From Bacteroidota bacterium (lineage in GTDB: Bacteria > Bacteroidota > Bacteroidia > UKL13-3), in the NCBI GenBank assembly GCA_027484685.1, contig JAIXSO010000047.1, positions 1-64,000 on the forward strand: 64,000 nucleotides of DNA. Reading direction: 5' to 3'. A program made the translations under genes and the position numbers. Positions 4,583-42,907 of the stretch are shown one piece after another (the stretch's first letter is position 1; each line of letters opens with the position of its first letter). The notes beneath the pieces are model-generated. The model made no database searches. It was not told the DNA's origin and saw only the letters and a program-made list of their open reading frames with translations.

Positions 4583-4701
4583 ATTGCTAGTTGCTAGTTG
4601 ACAGTTGATAGTTGATAGTAATTGATTTACAACAATCATAATTCAACAATCATAATTCAACAATCATAATTCAACAATCATAATTCAACATTCATAATTC
4701 A
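4583..4701. repeat. Tandem repeats after the beta-helix lipoprotein gene
   Basis: First comes a block of 'gctagttgctag' and 'gttgatagttgatag' words (about 4583-4619). Then follow about five copies of a 14-bp unit, 'aacaatcataattc', from 4631 to 4701, the last with one change. The same words appear upstream of ruvB (about 9300-9330). Confidence 0.8.
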
Positions 4702-10399: not shown

Positions 10400-10640
10400 C
10401 GGAGTTCGAAGTGCGAAGTTTCAAGTTCGAAGTTTTTAAACAAATGCGGAATGCGAAGTTTCGAGTGCGAAGTAAAATGCAAATGATTTAGTAAATAATT
10501 AATAACATTGCTTATTGCCCATTGCTTATTGTCTATTGCCTATTCCTGCATTTCATTCACTTCGCACTTTTGGCATTCAGCATTCCGAACTTTGCATTTC
10601 ATTTACTTCGAACTTTTGGCACTTCGAACTTCGCACTTTA
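10400..10640. repeat. Long inverted intergenic repeat of 'ttcgaagtgcgaag' words
   Basis: The left half carries copies of 'gttcgaagtgcgaagtttc' and 'gaatgcgaag'. The right half carries their complements ('cacttcgaacttcgcacttt', 'attcagcattccgaac'). The two halves could fold on each other across about 230 bp. A block of 'cattgcttattgcc' direct repeats lies in the middle. No coding frame is present. Confidence 0.75.
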
Positions 10641-11859: not shown

Positions 11860-12965
11860 CACTTTTTTGTTGCAGTCTAAGAATGCCTTCAAAGGCTCGA
11901 ATGGTTTTTCCTATTTAAACAAAAATTTTGGCTAAAGCCAATTTCTGTTTCTATTATTCCGTGCCCTAAAGGGCACGGCAATGGATACTTTCTAACAATC
12001 CTTCTCAAAACTGATTGGCCTTGAATTTCTATTTTTGGCAATGTCTAAACAAATTATTCATTCCAATTGACTTGGCTGTATTGCCACGCCCTTCAGGGCG
12101 TGGAGAAGATGAGCAGAAAAAATGGCTTTAGCCAAATTCTTCTTTATTTAAACATCAATTTTGGCTAAAACTAATTTGGATGTCTTTTTATTGCCGCGCC
12201 CTAAAGGGCACGGCAATGGATTCTTCAATTAATCCTTTTCAAAACTAGTTGTCTTTTAAACTGATGCCTTCGCTTTCAGCGAAGGCATCAGTTATTACGA
12301 ATGCTATGCAGCGCTTCTCCTTAATTTGGCAACGAGTTAGCTAATGGATAGTAATCATTTATAGCCAAGAAGATGCTTTCAGCATGACCCCGATGTTGCA
12401 GGATTTTAGTTTTGGCTTAAGCCAACTTGCATATTTTTTTATTCCGTGCCCTAAAGGGCACGGCAATGGATACTTTCTAAAGTCCATTTCAAAACTGATT
12501 GGCTTTGATTGTTGTTTTTGGCAATGTCTAAACAAATTATTCATTCCAATTGACTTGGCTGTATAGAAGGATTAATTGCCACGCCCTTCAGGGCGTGGAG
12601 AAGATGAGCAGAAAAAAATGGCTTTAGCCAAATTCTTCTTTATTTAAACATCAATTTTGGCTAAAGCTAATTTAGATGTCTTTTTATTCCATGCCCTAAA
12701 GGGCACGGCAATGGATTCTATTAATTAATCATTTTCAAAACTAGTTGGCTTTGATTTTTATTTTTTGGCAATGGCCTTGATTAATTGCCACGCCCTTCAG
12801 GGCGTGGAGAAGATGATTAGAAATAAATGGCTTAAGCCAAATTAAAACTAATGGCACTATAAGTTTTGAAAAATGCCGGTATGAATTTCCACGCCCTTTA
12901 GGGCGTGGAAAACATGATTACAAACAAATGGCTTTAGCCAAATGCTGTTTTAACATAAAATAGAG
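11860..12965. repeat. Array of alternating REP/BIME-like hairpin elements
   Basis: A gene-free 1.1 kb block. Plus-oriented elements consist of 'ttttggctaaagcca', about 20 bp, then a hairpin with arms ccgtgccc/gggcacgg and loop TAAA (11959-11978, 12194-12213, 12444-12463, 12689-12708; some arms carry one mismatch). Inverted elements have hairpin ccacgccc/gggcgtgg with loop TTCA or TTTA (12084-12103, 12579-12598, 12788-12807, 12889-12908), then 'tggctttagcca'. A compound unit of about 490 bp is present twice (about 11920-12250 and 12400-12760). The layout resembles bacterial interspersed mosaic elements. No RAYT-type transposase gene is in the window. Confidence 0.9.
12261..12291. repeat. Perfect 14-bp hairpin within the repeat array
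   Basis: Arms 'ctgatgccttcgct' and 'agcgaaggcatcag' surround a 3-base loop. It belongs to a different sequence family from the hairpins around it and lies between the two compound units. Confidence 0.85.
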
Positions 12966-12972
12966 TGTACTT

Positions 12973-15405
12973 TTATTTTATACCTGTTATGGTTTTAAAC
13001 TGTAAGTTATCTTGCTTTAACAAATCTTTATTTAACTGCGAAATAAGTATTTGGCAAATATCTTTTACCAAAACATAATTATTAGCCATTAAAGCTTTTT
13101 CACCATCGCTCATTATTGAGGCCAAATTATCGGTTTTAGCATAATTGGTTATGGGCATTGATTTTAAGTTCAAAAATATTTTACCATAATTTTGGGCATT
13201 GCTATAAAAATTGGTTGATTCTATGTCACTCAATATTTTTGTTTTACCATCTATCCAATGCCTGTCGCCTGAGTTTAGCATATCATTTTCACTTTGAATA
13301 ATAGCTTCTACTTCAGCTTTTTGATTACCATTCAACTCATTTATTATAAGCAAAACACCTTGTTTGGCTAAATGCCATTCCTCTATTATAGCTTGTAGTT
13401 TTACAGCCCTATCCAAACTATCTAATGCTTTAAGTAATGTACGTTTTTGTTCGTCTAATTTATATAAATTATCGTCATTTACTTGGTTTAACAGCGCATG
13501 TAATTCAGTTAATCCGTCAGAACAATTTTGATATTTTTGCACTAATTCAAAGTTTTGATCTTGTATAGCCGAGGTAATTTTAGGTGTAATTTGTTCAATG
13601 GCCAATTGAATTTCTATTTGAACTTTATGCTTATTAACCAGTTTGGTATTTGGGTTAAAAACACTTTTTAACTTTAAATCAGCCGATGGAATATTTACTC
13701 CTACTTCCAAATCTCTCGATTCTGAAATACTGATATTAAGTTCAATGGGAGTGCCTTTTACTAAATCGTGTTTAAGGGCGCTGCCTTCAATATTTATCAT
13801 ACCAATACTTAAATTAGAGGCAGGCAGGGTACCACGTTTTCCTTCTAACACGTTAATAAACACATGGTCGTTGGAACCAGCCAATACTGTTTTTGAAAGT
13901 GTTTTATAAACTGTTTTCTTAAGTGGTAATAAAGTATTTTTCAAAAAAATAGGCTCTAGCAAAGTTTCCCCACCTTCATTATCTAACTCTAAACAGATAT
14001 CAGCCGGCAGTGGTTGACCATTTATACTAAAGTTTCCTTGATTAATAGCTACCTCAAAACTACCTGCTATTTTTTTTGAACTGTTAAGTAATGAAATATG
14101 AAACGTATTGAGTGTGTTTGGTAATAAAGGTACAAATACTTGTATATGATTGTTAAACGCCTCTAAAGGCTGTAATAAATGGTCGTTTAACCTTTCTATT
14201 TGAATAAAACCATTAAAGTTGGTCTTCGTTTTTATGTCAATTAATTCTTCATCATCTCTCGAGTTATTTTCATAAAGCAAATTTACATTTACTTTATTTT
14301 CCAATTTATCATTGTTTGTAGCTATTTGAGCTAATTTAGAACCTGCATAATAAGCAGCACCTTTAACCACAGCCGTAGTTGGGTCTATGCTACTATCAAT
14401 TGTTAATCCAGTTTGAAGTTTTAAATTTTCTCTAATAAATGGAATATAAGTAGTACCTCCTACCAATATGATGCGGTTTAAATTATGATATTGTAAACCA
14501 CATTGTTCTAGCATTTCGGCTAATAACAACATTGATTCATTAAAAAAAGGTATTACCAAATCGTTGAATTCATTTATGGAAATTGGAATTTCTTTAAATA
14601 AATCTAACTCATCGTACTCTATTTCAATCAGTGCATGATTGGCTACTGAAAGCTCTTTTTTAGCATCTTCTATCTTAGCAATTAAATAAGAGTGCAAAGT
14701 GCTTAACTCCTCTTGATTTAATTTTTCAAGTAATTGTTTGTCAATTTGAGGCAACACCACTTTATTCAAAACAGCTTGATCTATATCAAAACCTCCTAAA
14801 AAATTATTGCCTAAATGGTTAATTGTTTTTAACTCACGGTTGTTTATTGCTATCAATGCGCAATCAAAAGTACCACCTCCAAAATCGTAAACCACCCAAT
14901 ACTGCTTTTCGGTTAAATCAATATTATTTTCGTTAGCATAAGCTAAGCAAGCAGCTATAGGTTCTTGTAACAATAACACTTCTTTTAACCCAGCCATTTC
15001 GCCAGCTTTTTTAGTAGCGTTCGACTGAACAGTATCAAACGAAGCAGGAATAGTTATTACGCATGATTGTATGGTTTTATCACGCTCAAATGCCAATAAA
15101 GTTGAAAGTATTTGGGCTGATAATGCAATAGGATTTACCTCGATATTTTCAGCTTCAATCTTATATATTTTATCAGTACCCATATTACGTTTAAAACTAC
15201 TAATAACCAACTGAGGATTAGTTTTTAGTAATTCCAACGCTTTTTCACCAATAAAAATTCTTCCATTTTTAAAACCAACAGCCGAAGGCAATAGCTCTCT
15301 AAAACCTTTTGGATTTTTTAACAACACAACCTTACCTTCCATATACACCCCTATTGCCGAGTTTGTTGTACCTAAATCTATTCCAAAATTTATATTATAT
15401 TGCAT
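12973..15405 (-). CDS. Hsp70-family protein with an extended C-terminus
   Basis: An 810-aa Hsp70 relative; DnaK is about 640 aa. The actin-like ATPase half is complete: 'GIDLGTTNSAIGV' (phosphate 1, residues 8-20), 'VITIPASFDTVQSNATKKAG', 'LLQEPIAACLAYA', 'VYDFGGGTFDCALI' (phosphate 2) and 'ILVGGTTYIPFIRENL' (adenosine site). The region after about 380 is beta-rich but poorly matches the DnaK substrate domain. Residues 580-810 are helical and do not end in a DnaK-type tail. It is therefore a specialised Hsp70, not the housekeeping DnaK; no J-protein or GrpE gene is nearby. It diverges from the membrane protein at 15465. Confidence 0.85.
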   Translation of the reverse strand: MQYNINFGIDLGTTNSAIGVYMEGKVVLLKNPKGFRELLPSAVGFKNGRIFIGEKALELLKTNPQLVISSFKRNMGTDKIYKIEAENIEVNPIALSAQILSTLLAFERDKTIQSCVITIPASFDTVQSNATKKAGEMAGLKEVLLLQEPIAACLAYANENNIDLTEKQYWVVYDFGGGTFDCALIAINNRELKTINHLGNNFLGGFDIDQAVLNKVVLPQIDKQLLEKLNQEELSTLHSYLIAKIEDAKKELSVANHALIEIEYDELDLFKEIPISINEFNDLVIPFFNESMLLLAEMLEQCGLQYHNLNRIILVGGTTYIPFIRENLKLQTGLTIDSSIDPTTAVVKGAAYYAGSKLAQIATNNDKLENKVNVNLLYENNSRDDEELIDIKTKTNFNGFIQIERLNDHLLQPLEAFNNHIQVFVPLLPNTLNTFHISLLNSSKKIAGSFEVAINQGNFSINGQPLPADICLELDNEGGETLLEPIFLKNTLLPLKKTVYKTLSKTVLAGSNDHVFINVLEGKRGTLPASNLSIGMINIEGSALKHDLVKGTPIELNISISESRDLEVGVNIPSADLKLKSVFNPNTKLVNKHKVQIEIQLAIEQITPKITSAIQDQNFELVQKYQNCSDGLTELHALLNQVNDDNLYKLDEQKRTLLKALDSLDRAVKLQAIIEEWHLAKQGVLLIINELNGNQKAEVEAIIQSENDMLNSGDRHWIDGKTKILSDIESTNFYSNAQNYGKIFLNLKSMPITNYAKTDNLASIMSDGEKALMANNYVLVKDICQILISQLNKDLLKQDNLQFKTITGIK

Positions 15406-34693: not shown

Positions 34694-34784
34694 ACCGTTT
34701 ATCGATTACCGTTGACCGAAAATCGTTTATTGAAAAACGTCAAACGAACAACAAATAACGAACATCAAATAACGAAAAACGACT
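34694..34784. repeat. Intergenic repeat of 'gaccgttt' and 'cgaacaacaaataacg' words
   Basis: A run of short related words between fcl and the four-helix-bundle gene. It closely resembles the block at 35139-35326 on the other side of that gene, so the small gene is bracketed by the same repeat type. Confidence 0.7.
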
Positions 34785-35138
34785 ATGGAATCTAATTTAG
34801 AAGTTTGGAAATTATCTCATCAGTTAGTTTTATCTATTTATAAAATTACTGAAACATTTCTCAAAACGGAACAGTTTGGTCTTGTTAGCCAAATCAGAAG
34901 AAGTGCTATTAGCATTCCAACCAATATTATTGAAGGACAAGCAAGACAATATAAAAAAGAATTTATTCAATTTTTATATATTGCAAAAGGTTCTCTTGAA
35001 GAAACTAATTATCATTTATTTTTAGCTAAATACCTAGTCTTTATTTCTGAAGAAATATACCAAGAGCTTTCAGAAATTTGTACTAGAATAAAAATGATGT
35101 TACATAAACTAATTAAATCAATGCAAACGGAACGTTGA
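34785..35138 (+). CDS. Four-helix-bundle protein (S23/23S rRNA-IVP, bAvd-like)
   Basis: A 117-aa helical protein. 'LEVWKLSHQLVLSIYKIT', 'GLVSQIRRSAISIPTNIIEG' and 'KEFIQFLYIAKGSLEETNYH' are the three hallmark segments of the TIGR02436-type four-helix-bundle family, first found as intervening sequences of 23S rRNA and related to the Avd protein of retroelements. The usual 'NIAEG' reads 'NIIEG' here. Members are frequent in Bacteroidota polysaccharide loci; their role is unknown. Repeat blocks flank it on both sides. Confidence 0.88.
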   Translation: MESNLEVWKLSHQLVLSIYKITETFLKTEQFGLVSQIRRSAISIPTNIIEGQARQYKKEFIQFLYIAKGSLEETNYHLFLAKYLVFISEEIYQELSEICTRIKMMLHKLIKSMQTER

Positions 35139-35326
35139 CCGTTTAACGTTGGCCGATGACCGTTTATCGTTGACCGAAAATCGAATAAAATTAGCATTCA
35201 CTTCGGCTTCGCTCAGTGACCGTTAAAAGAATAACAAATAATGAACAACGACAAACAAGCAACGAACAACGAACATCGAATAACAAACAACGTAAAACGA
35301 GCAACGAAAAACGAAAAACGAAAAAA
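35139..35326. repeat. Intergenic repeat block upstream of gmd
   Basis: Contains 'gaccgtt' words, the imperfect palindrome 'cacttcggcttcgctcagtg' (35199-35218), and a long run of 'cgaacaacgaacatcg' and 'acgaaaaacg' units reaching the gmd start. Translated in the gmd frame it would give a low-complexity Asn/Gln/Arg/Lys peptide, which is why the upstream start at 35216 is rejected. Confidence 0.8.
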
Positions 35327-37916: not shown

Positions 37917-37984
37917 TACTTTCTGATTTTTGTAAGAGAATTCAAAGTAGGGAATCCAAAAGCCAGAGTAGAAAAATTTAAAAT

Positions 37985-38080
37985 TATCTGTAATCTGTAA
38001 TCTGTAATCTGGAATCTGGAATCTTTTATCTGGAATCTTCTATCTGGAATCTTTTATCTGACATCTTTTATCTGACATCT
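37985..38080. repeat. Tandem repeat of 'atctggaatctt'-type units
   Basis: About eight units of 7-12 bp ('taatctg', 'gaatctg', 'gaatcttttatctg', 'acatcttttatctg') lie directly upstream of the ArsR-like regulator gene and reach to within 20 bp of its start. Confidence 0.85.
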
Positions 38081-39795: not shown

Positions 39796-39869
39796 ATGCA
39801 CAAAATCCCAGTAACCCAATAAATAATAAAAACTAGGTACTAAAAACTTAGAACTAAAAACTTCAAAAA

Positions 39870-41144
<1,275 letters not shown>

Positions 41145-41149
41145 TGAGT

Positions 41150-41284
41150 AGTTTGGAAGTTGGGAGGTTAGTTGGTTGGGGAGTTTGTGAGTTGGACAAA
41201 CCTTTTCAAACTCTCAAACCTTTTTACAAACCTCCAAACCTTTTTACAAACCCTCAAACCTTTCATCCACCCAAACCTTTCATA
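41150..41284. repeat. 'caaacctccaaacc' repeat block, copy 1
   Basis: The left part has 'gtttggaagttgggagg' and 'gagtttgtgagttgg'; the right part has 'aaacctttttacaaacctcc' units. The two parts are complementary in places and can fold. Translation in the frame of the downstream gene would give a low-complexity peptide, so that gene starts at 41285. Confidence 0.85.
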
Positions 41285-41647
41285 ATGGTAACATACAGTT
41301 TTGAAAAATTAGAAGTTTGGAAAGAGTCAAGAATATTAGTTAAACTTATCTATCAGCATACTAAATTATTTCCAAAAGAAGAAATTTTTGGTATTACAAG
41401 CCAAATGAGAAGAGCCGCAATTTCGGTAAGTTCCAATATAGCTGAAGGTGCTGGAAGAAAAACACAGAAAAATCAGGCTCAGTTTTATACCATCGCTTAT
41501 GGAAGTTTAATGGAGCTGCTGAATCAATTAATTATTTCAGTTGATTTAGAATTTCTTGAAGAATCAAAATTAGAAAATGAATTCCGACCATTAATCAATA
41601 AAATAAGTCTTAAATTATATAACTTAAAAAATAAAGAGGTTGAATAA
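41285..41647 (+). CDS. Four-helix-bundle protein (S23/23S rRNA-IVP, bAvd-like)
   Basis: A 120-aa relative of the genes at 34785 and 37557. 'FEKLEVWKESRILVKLIYQ', 'FPKEEIFGITSQMRRAAISV' and 'SSNIAEGAGRKTQKNQAQFY' match the family closely, including the intact NIAEG. The ATG at 41285 fits the usual family N-terminus. An upstream in-frame start at 41144 would add 47 residues of translated repeat and overlap the dehydrogenase stop. The same repeat type bounds the gene on both sides. Confidence 0.9.
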   Translation: MVTYSFEKLEVWKESRILVKLIYQHTKLFPKEEIFGITSQMRRAAISVSSNIAEGAGRKTQKNQAQFYTIAYGSLMELLNQLIISVDLEFLEESKLENEFRPLINKISLKLYNLKNKEVE

Positions 41648-41654
41648 AGAAATT

Positions 41655-41808
41655 TTGTGAGTTTGCAGGTTTGTAGGTTTGTTTGTTTTTAGGTTTACTT
41701 TTCAAACTTCCAAACCTCCAAACCTTTTGCCCAACCTTTTCCAAACCTCCAAACCTTCTTCAAAACAACCAAACTCCCAAACACTTTCACAAACCTCCCA
41801 ACCTTCCA
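41655..41808. repeat. 'caaacctccaaacc' repeat block, copy 2
   Basis: 'gtgagtttgcaggtttgtag' type words are followed by many 'aaacctccaaacc' units, ending at the start of the epimerase gene. This is the same family as 41150-41284 and as the insertion at 42569-42659. Confidence 0.85.
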
Positions 41809-41809
41809 A

Positions 41810-42907
41810 ATGTTCAACCCAAAATTATACAACACTCCCTACCACACCACAGACTTATATAAATTCAAATTTTTAGTAACTGGAGGTGCGGGATTTATTG
41901 GTTCTAACATTGTTGAGTACCTAATTAAATACAATGCAGGACATGTGCGTGTACTTGACAATTTATCGAATGGTTACTTCGAAAATATCAAAGATTTTAT
42001 GGGCTTACCTAATTTCGAATTTATTTTAGGAGATATAAGAAATTTAGAAACTTGTAAAAAAGCGGTAGAAGGTATGGACTTTGTAAGCCATCAAGCGGCC
42101 TTAGGTTCAGTGCCACGTTCAATTGCAGACCCCATTACTTCTAATGACGTAAATGTAAAAGGTTTTTTAAATATGCTTACTGTGGTAAAAGATGCACCAA
42201 ATATAAAACAAATGGTGTATGCAGCTTCTTCATCTACTTATGGTGACAGCCCTACCCTTCCTAAAGTGGAAGGTAACGAAGGTAACCCTTTATCACCCTA
42301 TGCTGTAACCAAGTTAGTAAACGAATTGTATGCTGATGTATATAGTAAAGTTTATGGACTGCATGCCATTGGCTTGAGGTACTTTAACGTTTTTGGACCT
42401 AAACAAAATCCAAATAATCCTTATGCTGCGGTAATTCCAATTTTCTGCAAAGCATTTATTGAAGGAAAACAACCTACTATAAACGGTGATGGATTAACTA
42501 GCCGAGATTTCACCTTTGTTGAAAATGCAGTACAAGCGAACATCAAAGCAATGCTTATTGGAGTTGAAGAAAGTTTGGAGGTTCGTGAGTTGGGAGGTTT
42601 GAACACCTCAAACCAACAAACCTCCAAACCAACAAACGTTATAAATCCAAACCCTCTACAAAAGCACGAAGTATTCAACATGGCTTGTGGCGATCAAGTT
42701 ACCTTGAATGAGATGATTGATATATTAAATCAGTTAAGCGGCCAACAAATTAAACCTATTTATGGCCCTGAACGCAAAGGAGACGTAAAGCACTCTAAAG
42801 CAAGTATTGATAAAATTTCCAATTTCTTAAATTACGAACCACTATTTCGTTTCCAAAAAGGTTTAGAAATTGTTTTTGAATGGTATAATGAGCAATTTAG
42901 TTATTAA
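41810..42907 (+). CDS. NAD-dependent UDP-sugar 4-epimerase (TviC/WbpP-like) with repeat-derived insertion
   Basis: A 365-aa extended SDR. 'KFLVTGGAGFIGSNIVEYLI' holds the NAD motif (25-31), 'QAALGSVPRSIADP' and 'AASSSTYGDSP' with 'YAVTK' give the catalytic Ser, Tyr and Lys, and 'RYFNVFGPKQNPNNPYAAVI' is typical of UDP-GlcNAc C4-epimerases. Residues about 254-283 interrupt a stretch that is normally short in this family. They are encoded by a copy of the intergenic 'caaacctccaaacc' repeat (42569-42659). The motif after it, 'EVFNMACGDQVTLNEMIDIL', is intact, so the enzyme may still work. Confidence 0.88.
   Translation: MFNPKLYNTPYHTTDLYKFKFLVTGGAGFIGSNIVEYLIKYNAGHVRVLDNLSNGYFENIKDFMGLPNFEFILGDIRNLETCKKAVEGMDFVSHQAALGSVPRSIADPITSNDVNVKGFLNMLTVVKDAPNIKQMVYAASSSTYGDSPTLPKVEGNEGNPLSPYAVTKLVNELYADVYSKVYGLHAIGLRYFNVFGPKQNPNNPYAAVIPIFCKAFIEGKQPTINGDGLTSRDFTFVENAVQANIKAMLIGVEESLEVRELGGLNTSNQQTSKPTNVINPNPLQKHEVFNMACGDQVTLNEMIDILNQLSGQQIKPIYGPERKGDVKHSKASIDKISNFLNYEPLFRFQKGLEIVFEWYNEQFSY
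42569..42659. repeat. In-frame copy of the 'aacctccaaacc' repeat inside the epimerase gene
   Basis: 'tttggaggtt' (42573-42582) and 'aacctccaaa' (42619-42628) form the outer arms of an imperfect hairpin; 'gtgagttgggaggtttg' and 'cctcaaaccaacaaacctcc' fill it. The same words form the intergenic blocks at 41150 and 41655. The insertion keeps the reading frame. Confidence 0.85.

Follow-up and report, generated by a model that had tools for sequence, protein, structure and literature searches.

In-frame palindromes are best known from Rickettsia, where the Rickettsia palindromic elements (RPE) are described as palindromic repeats lying in frame within open reading frames (ORFs) and encoding a tolerated peptide segment (PMC10969869). 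Repeats of other kinds have been reported as the enterobacterial RU-1, RU-2 and RU-3, small mobile intergenic sequences of 103–168 bp that are described as occurring also in frame in annotated genes (PMC2759123), and as the heptameric repeats of Xanthomonas and Nostoc, arrays of a 7-nt unit that are given as mostly intergenic (PMC4692102). The IVS of rRNA genes are described as an S23-family ORF bordered by complementary sequences (PMC4990558), and the 23S rRNA IVP is named among the association scores in a figure legend of PMC10910872. A literature search, with most subscription papers and all preprints out of its reach, returned no paper in which four-helix-bundle (4HB) genes are connected with inverted heptad arrays or with in-frame copies within the genes next to them; passages of papers naming such genes do no more than list them. 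At the locus described here, an in-frame palindromic array is tied to a neighbouring element that itself bears a gene.

The locus lies in a window of 64,000 nucleotides (the whole stretch of DNA analysed, positions 1 to 64,000 of contig JAIXSO010000047.1, assembly GCA_027484685.1, Bacteroidota bacterium), which is part of a 307-kb contig, C43, with 237 ORFs as found by a simple caller. The host genome comprises 4.53 Mb in 72 contigs and is 99.87% complete and 0.29% contaminated. Two blocks of CAAACC-type words surround a 4HB gene of the S23 (23S-rRNA IVS) family, which sits between two protein genes and not in an rRNA gene, and a third such block is found within the epimerase gene that follows (Table 1). 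The product of the 4HB gene scores above the cut-offs of both PF05635 and TIGR02436 and has one PDB sequence match, 2gsc. An earlier note on this DNA had placed the two intergenic blocks at 41150–41284 and 41655–41808, where they are indeed present with the limits measured in Table 1, and had read the third as a repeat inserted into the gene; this reading is supported, with the correction that the blocks also border a 4HB/S23 gene, which the note did not mention. Block 1 could itself be translated as an N-terminal extension of the 4HB protein, 47 residues long: starting at a GTG overlapping the upstream stop codon, it contains no stop in the reading frame of the 4HB gene.

Table 1. Coordinates of the features around the epimerase gene and of the two other 4HB genes nearby (positions in the window).
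Feature	Position	Strand	Remarks
4HB gene, another	34785..35138	+	own word arrays 34743–34780 and 35225–35325
4HB gene with internal TAA	37572..37877	+	array 37984–38074
UDP-sugar dehydrogenase-like ORF	39870..41144	+	upstream neighbour; named by eye from the ORF list
Block 1	41144..41284		left flank of the 4HB gene; a GT-rich arm is followed by a CA-rich one
4HB (S23 / 23S-rRNA IVS) gene, 120 aa	41285..41647	+	PF05635 4.4e-33; TIGR02436 1.3e-30
Block 2	41650..41808		right flank of the 4HB gene, able to pair with block 1; a GT-rich arm is followed by a CA-rich one
WbpP/TviC-like epimerase gene, 365 aa	41810..42907	+	Pfam Epimerase 168 bits
Extra segment in the epimerase, residues 251–284	42560..42661	+	unaligned in PDB homologues
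Hairpin of the in-gene word array	42573..42629		folding

The word CAAACCTCCAAACC showed four exact copies in the genome, at 41227, 41711, 41742 and 42617 of C43, a span of 1.4 kb in which the intergenic blocks together contain three and the epimerase gene one; an order-1 model of the contig predicts 0.033 copies in 4.5 Mb. The exact word of the in-gene array is common only to the blocks 0.8–1.4 kb away. When up to two mismatches were allowed, the whole genome gave 42 + 33 matches and a backwards control 43 + 33, which is no excess, so the signal is a local cluster and not a genome-wide one. The array within the gene folds into a 21-pair hairpin, interrupted by small internal loops; its both-strand folding energy is the lowest among the 16,887 windows of 90 nt inside ORFs of C43; with DNA parameters it gave z = −2.77, and 1 of 200 shuffles was equally good. 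Intergenic blocks 1 and 2, folded singly, were no better than shuffles (z = −0.67 each). The L046 and L202 stretches folded with DNA parameters had been cut off-register, and these are not to be counted as negatives.

The loop of the epimerase between N244 and N290 has 16–18 residues in 66 of 76 sequences, the remaining ones having 34 residues without such repeats (three Bacteroidales) or 23–56 residues (seven sequences); in the epimerase of the window it has 47. These 76 loops, the window's included, come from 28 of 30 loci of family genomes and 48 of 80 named loci, the other 2 and 32 having no readable epimerase ORF by the pattern used. Since the three Bacteroidales loops reach 34 residues, the site tolerates length. 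The PDB homologue 10ke aligns at residues 19–250 and 285–361, with 251–284 unmatched, and WbpP (1sb8) at residues 21–253 and 285–359. The AlphaFold model of the epimerase (mean pLDDT 86.5) has a sole stretch under 50, residues 255–277, and its extra segment forms a loop between helix 237–248 and strand 287–291; compared with WbpP (1sb9) it gives Z 47.6 and an rmsd of 1.7 over 325 residues, the family fold being kept outside the segment. We infer that the enzyme is still functional. Its score with the TviC equivalog model was 312 bits against a cut-off of 760, so this match does not fix which enzyme of the family it is.

Most of what the earlier note had proposed for this gene agrees with these data. 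The hairpin-forming copy of the intergenic words is present, both as an exact word and as the strongest coding hairpin of C43, and the genome search that had been suggested returned this single in-gene copy for the CAAACCTCCAAACC word family. The claimed addition of about 30 residues, 254–283, corresponds to nucleotides 42569–42659 (codons 254–283), with a gain of 29 residues over an 18-residue loop, and its placement in a loop is that of the predicted structure. The alignment to homologues, which was also its proposal, sets the segment apart from what is usual in this family, given the short loops of the 66 sequences and the split alignments of the PDB homologues, and 0 of the 75 other readable sequences carry the same residues, so that neither of the two outcomes named there as refutations was observed. 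The word "copied" implies a direction that goes beyond these data.

An epimerase match at E ≤ 1e-60 was obtained in 35 of 64 family genomes, five of them in the genus of the window. In all five the site is filled, each time with a different array: CAAACCTC words in G000, AGTTTAGAG/CTAAACAGCGAAGC words in G040, ATCAATAAATC words in G036, a quite different palindrome, GTCACTTCGAGCGGAGTCGAGAAG, in G039, and a short AGTTTAGAG...CTAAAC hairpin in G044. The arrays of G044, G040 and G000 have a common start of type AGTTTAGAG/AGTTTGGAG (AGTTTRGAG) in the same register. Outside the genus, two loci show a few extra residues at this site and the rest show none. Because all five genomes are filled, and each differently, an old, ever-changing insertion fits better than one fresh insertion.

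Upstream of the epimerase gene, the gap with the 4HB gene and its arrays measures 665 bp in G000, 663 bp in G036 and 712 bp in G010. In G018 only 3 bp separate the two genes, and in G005 and G006 their ORFs, as read, overlap; empty sites of an inserted element would have this appearance. In G010 the 4HB element is present and the epimerase loop is bare, and in G040 the in-gene array is present with no 4HB gene on that contig. A permutation test of own pairs at the epimerase site was not significant (36/120 and 46/120). In G040 and G036, the in-gene array resembles the element of a different species and not its own (own coverage of 8% each); 8-mers from the 4HB-flanking region of the sister genome G036 cover 83% of the G040 array. 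We read such cross-matching as a sign of turnover, but the matching at this site could equally be accidental.

A count of 7-mer palindromes in 140-bp windows separated real from resampled sequence poorly (152 vs 116 merged regions) and was replaced by folding, in which stems of at least 14 pairs were considered and the matches of C43 were sorted by eye. Folding revealed one more clear in-gene word array, at C43:105556–105690, in a gene for a DegT/WbpE-like aminotransferase. Another 4HB gene, carrying the same TGAG/CTCA words, lies immediately upstream. The alignment with WbpE (3nyu) covers residues 4–168 and 201–399 of the aminotransferase. This gene was found in 16 of 62 genomes at E ≤ 1e-80, with a readable loop in 14 of them once the matches in G036 and G044 (L214 and L213), without a readable loop, had been excluded. 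Nine loops contain in-frame arrays, which belong to three or more word families, and five are bare or nearly so (G002, G006, G009, G011, and G039). In G010, two word families are interleaved over 59 extra positions. No 4HB gene was present at the site in the three bare genomes examined; G011 has a GxxExxY-like ORF there (by eye), and G009 and G039 have arrays alone.

In seven genomes, the aminotransferase array and its upstream region were both on the contig. The summed similarity of own pairs in these genomes was reached by 8 of 5040 permutations, or by 12 of 5040 when 8-mer coverage was used, in a test designed after the likeness had been seen. Own 8-mer coverage was 74% in G000, 76% in G043, 72% in G013, and 70% in G016, where the upstream 4HB gene is intact, and 0, 12, and 8%, taken as no match, in the three genomes with either a broken 4HB gene (G014) or a GxxExxY gene (G005 and G010). 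The G013 array is covered to 80% by the upstream region of G043 versus 72% by its own. The words on either side in G043 resemble those of G013 and G016, but the coding stretch between them is nearest to that of its own genus (84.8 and 82.6% vs at most 77.3%). In addition, loci L202 and L207 (G016 and G012), whose aminotransferase arrays have different words, share 96–100% identity for 2 kb after the loop array and 76% over the 121 bp before it. This breakpoint at the array, seen in one pair with a contig end nearby, suggests that recombination acts there; it would correspond either to a recent exchange that ended at the array or to a misjoined contig.

GxxExxY genes (TIGR04256) were also noted at L201:1029–1415 and L217:1075–1449 and, in the genome of the window, at C14:48640 and C60:21143. 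They occupy the same gap as the 4HB gene of other genomes, with ACACAAAGG/TCTTTGTG-type words adjoining, and may represent a second, exchangeable cargo of such gaps.

The genome of the window contains 12 matches to PF05635, most of which, as read by eye, have locus-specific words (e.g., TGAGNNN, GTTGNNN, AGTTCTN). A profile built from 4 of these 12 proteins missed divergent 4HB genes that were found with the family models. In a first cross-pair comparison of flanks, orthologous or adjacent loci were among the "mismatched" pairs (maximum score 536), and it was discarded in favour of a test against resampled sequences, drawn from an order-1 Markov model and not exact dinucleotide shuffles, with windows elsewhere in the same loci as controls. 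Within the family, 52 distinct 4HB loci were available (59 of an earlier run minus seven repeated genes), and their flanks paired better than 95% of the resampled ones in 45 of 52 cases versus 7 of 104 control windows, and better than all 500 in 31 of 52 versus 0 of 104. Nine of the 12 loci of the window's genome pass this test, the three without pairing flanks being among 7 such loci of the 52; at the 41285–41647 gene (L004), the flanks beat all 500 resampled ones, or rank in the top 5%, and beat 100 of 100 in the earlier run. Own flank pairs of this genome average 33.3 and cross pairs 21.7, and in 8 of 12 rows the own pair scores highest. At a lag of 7 nt, identity was 0.414 at the 52 loci and 0.268 in controls. 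Across the phylum, where TIGR02436 is found in 114 of 148 genomes, flanks paired at 17 of 29 4HB loci versus 0 of 58 controls (lag-7 identity 0.321 vs 0.263). The loci tested were the best-scoring ones returned by the searches and not a random draw. As a comparison with REP/RAYT systems, whose repeats also border Y1 transposase genes, 15 Y1_Tnp matches were obtained, with paired flanks in 1 of 6 loci with full flanks (10 taken) and a lag-7 identity of 0.29. In general, 4HB/S23 genes are bordered by locus-specific inverted arrays of approximately 7-nt words.

Copies of such arrays inside genes are rarer. In 104 arms of about 1.1 kb around the 52 4HB genes, the only clear in-gene copies were those of the epimerase and the aminotransferase, and the two cases of the window's genome scored 56 and 34, versus at most 25 and 26, respectively, for words of foreign flanks. 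Four others among the best 16 of the 104 arms beat every foreign flank; three of them (L090, L236, and L229) are outside long ORFs, and the fourth, L074, is within an ORF, scores 27 vs 25, and shows no word array by eye. The 12 in-gene arrays compared across genomes (7 aminotransferase, 5 epimerase) have no stop codon in the frame of the gene and 38 and 37 in the other two frames, which shows that the array words are not inherently stop-free. The stop-free frame is no independent proof of selection, because the genes had been selected as intact and in-frame motifs served as end points for the length measurements.

We consider it fairly probable that tolerant loops of proteins house solo arrays of 4HB/S23 elements, and that these arrays are rewritten in step with the adjacent element. 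The 4HB gene and its two arrays would constitute an IVS-like element in the dehydrogenase–epimerase gap, and a "solo" copy of the inverted word array flanking this 4HB gene, one that lacks the cargo, would encode the extra residues of the epimerase. Such an element may leave arrays without cargo, some of them in gene loops. The array would have entered the length-tolerant loop of the epimerase probably once, in the ancestor of the genus, its words being since rewritten by slippage of 7–8-nt units, with the frame kept open, and also by exchange with the arrays of the neighbouring element, with which they would keep pace where the 4HB gene is intact. Sequence comparison establishes the shared words, their absence beyond the genus and its nearest kin, the different arrays of the congeners, the general arrays of 4HB genes, and the neighbour-matched second case. 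We infer in which direction copying went, that arrays were exchanged or were copied from the element, and any role of the 4HB protein. A bolder version, which we regard as doubtful, is that the 4HB/S23 genes of Bacteroidota, together with their private inverted heptad arrays, form an IVS-like class that writes its own array into the loop of the next gene and rewrites it there, in a template–target relation like that of diversity-generating retroelements (DGR) with no adjacent reverse transcriptase; if true, such rewriting diversifies neighbouring surface-sugar enzymes in frame.

An unlikely competitor is independent repeated insertion, with the loop as a hot spot into which different array families jump anew in each species and no rewriting in place. 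The quite different GTCACTTCGAGCGGAGTCGAGAAG palindrome of G039 at the same epimerase site would be easily accommodated, as would the three or more word families of the aminotransferase loop and the tolerance of both loops to length; the AGTTTRGAG start in the same register in G000, G040 and G044, however, and the filling of all five genus genomes, none of them empty, argue against it. Rewriting along with the neighbouring element also has to be weighed against coevolution at the RNA level, in which a single long mRNA, to which the 4HB protein may bind, would let the arrays of the element and of the next gene pair, their words being kept alike by selection on this pairing. The genes do lie on one strand, inverted arrays let any two of one word family pair, and S23 ORFs in rRNA are described as lying inside a stem (PMC4990558), but translation would open the part within the gene, and 3 of 7 aminotransferase and 2 of 5 epimerase arrays match their own upstream region poorly, so we find this improbable. 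A DGR-like process, in which the 4HB protein would be related to Avd and the array would be copied into the gene by a reverse transcriptase working in trans, is very improbable: the likeness of PF05635 to Avd has been published (PMC10053308) and the 4HB protein does match the DGR Avd model weakly (E 6.8e-4, 19.9 bits), but this is far below the cut-off of 80, and the four PF00078 matches of the genome (C4, C23, and C32; three over the cut-off) include none on C43. Finally, an ordinary variable loop or an assembly artefact, with low-complexity coding sequence merely resembling the intergenic words, is hardly credible despite the three Bacteroidales homologues with 34 residues and no such repeats, given the exact 14-mers common only to the neighbouring blocks, the strongest coding hairpin of the contig, the similar arrays in several separate assemblies, and the completeness and low contamination of the genome.

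If arrays of 4HB/S23 elements are indeed rewritten in protein loops together with their neighbours, genes seem to remain intact and working while repetitive DNA is written into them and rewritten there. Each locus and each species has words of its own, and one and the same enzyme loop is filled differently across species; genome comparison could test the role of S23/4HB genes outside rRNA and how repeat DNA becomes protein.

Other repeats were observed in this genome. A second in-frame palindrome, AGACGYATAATTATRCGTCT, has four copies with up to two mismatches (C43:209425–209444, C55:100510, C60:19764, and C60:62401; L295 to L298), 4/4 in ORFs of at least 120 codons and in the same frame, where it encodes VET(Y/H)NY(T/A)S; by eye, the host genes are those of alanyl- and aspartyl-tRNA synthetases, a cysteine-desulfurase-like protein and a Y1 transposase. 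The pattern GAGACGN{4,16}CGTCTC occurs at 13 sites (L299–L311), and of the 12 examined (C41:242 being left out) six are in ORFs of at least 150 codons and six are not, three of the former being in one tandem-repeat ORF that is maybe no gene. Within the window, further short-word arrays (7- or 14-nt tandem repeats and similar) were seen at 4584–4701, 10403–10639, and 39827–39863, and about 1 kb of repeated palindromes of CGTGCCCTAAAGGGCACG and TGGCTTTAGCCA types, another repeat family, at 11896–12975.

Compared with known systems, the heptamers of Xanthomonas and Nostoc are, as described, one G-rich sequence genome-wide and not locus-specific, with no S23 link in that description, and RU-1/2/3 are described as fixed sequence families, with no mention there of word arrays or a linked gene. 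DGRs, whose template and variable repeats are distinguished by adenine-specific changes, likewise combine a 4HB (Avd-like) gene with a nearby repeat that recurs in the variable part of a neighbouring gene, but C43 has no reverse transcriptase and the Avd score is below the cut-off. The 23S rRNA IVS, which RNase III excises from the RNA, share with this element the S23-family ORF and its complementary borders and differ from it in that the element lies here between protein genes, has arrays of short words as borders, and has related arrays inside genes. The closest known kind is the RPE, which the AGACGYATAATTATRCGTCT palindrome does resemble, and the epimerase segment is likewise a hairpin-forming repeat in frame within an ORF. 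However, RPE are sequence families found in many unrelated genes, whereas the words of the epimerase are private to one locus, 41227–42630, and to one gene, and are tied to the neighbouring 4HB gene.
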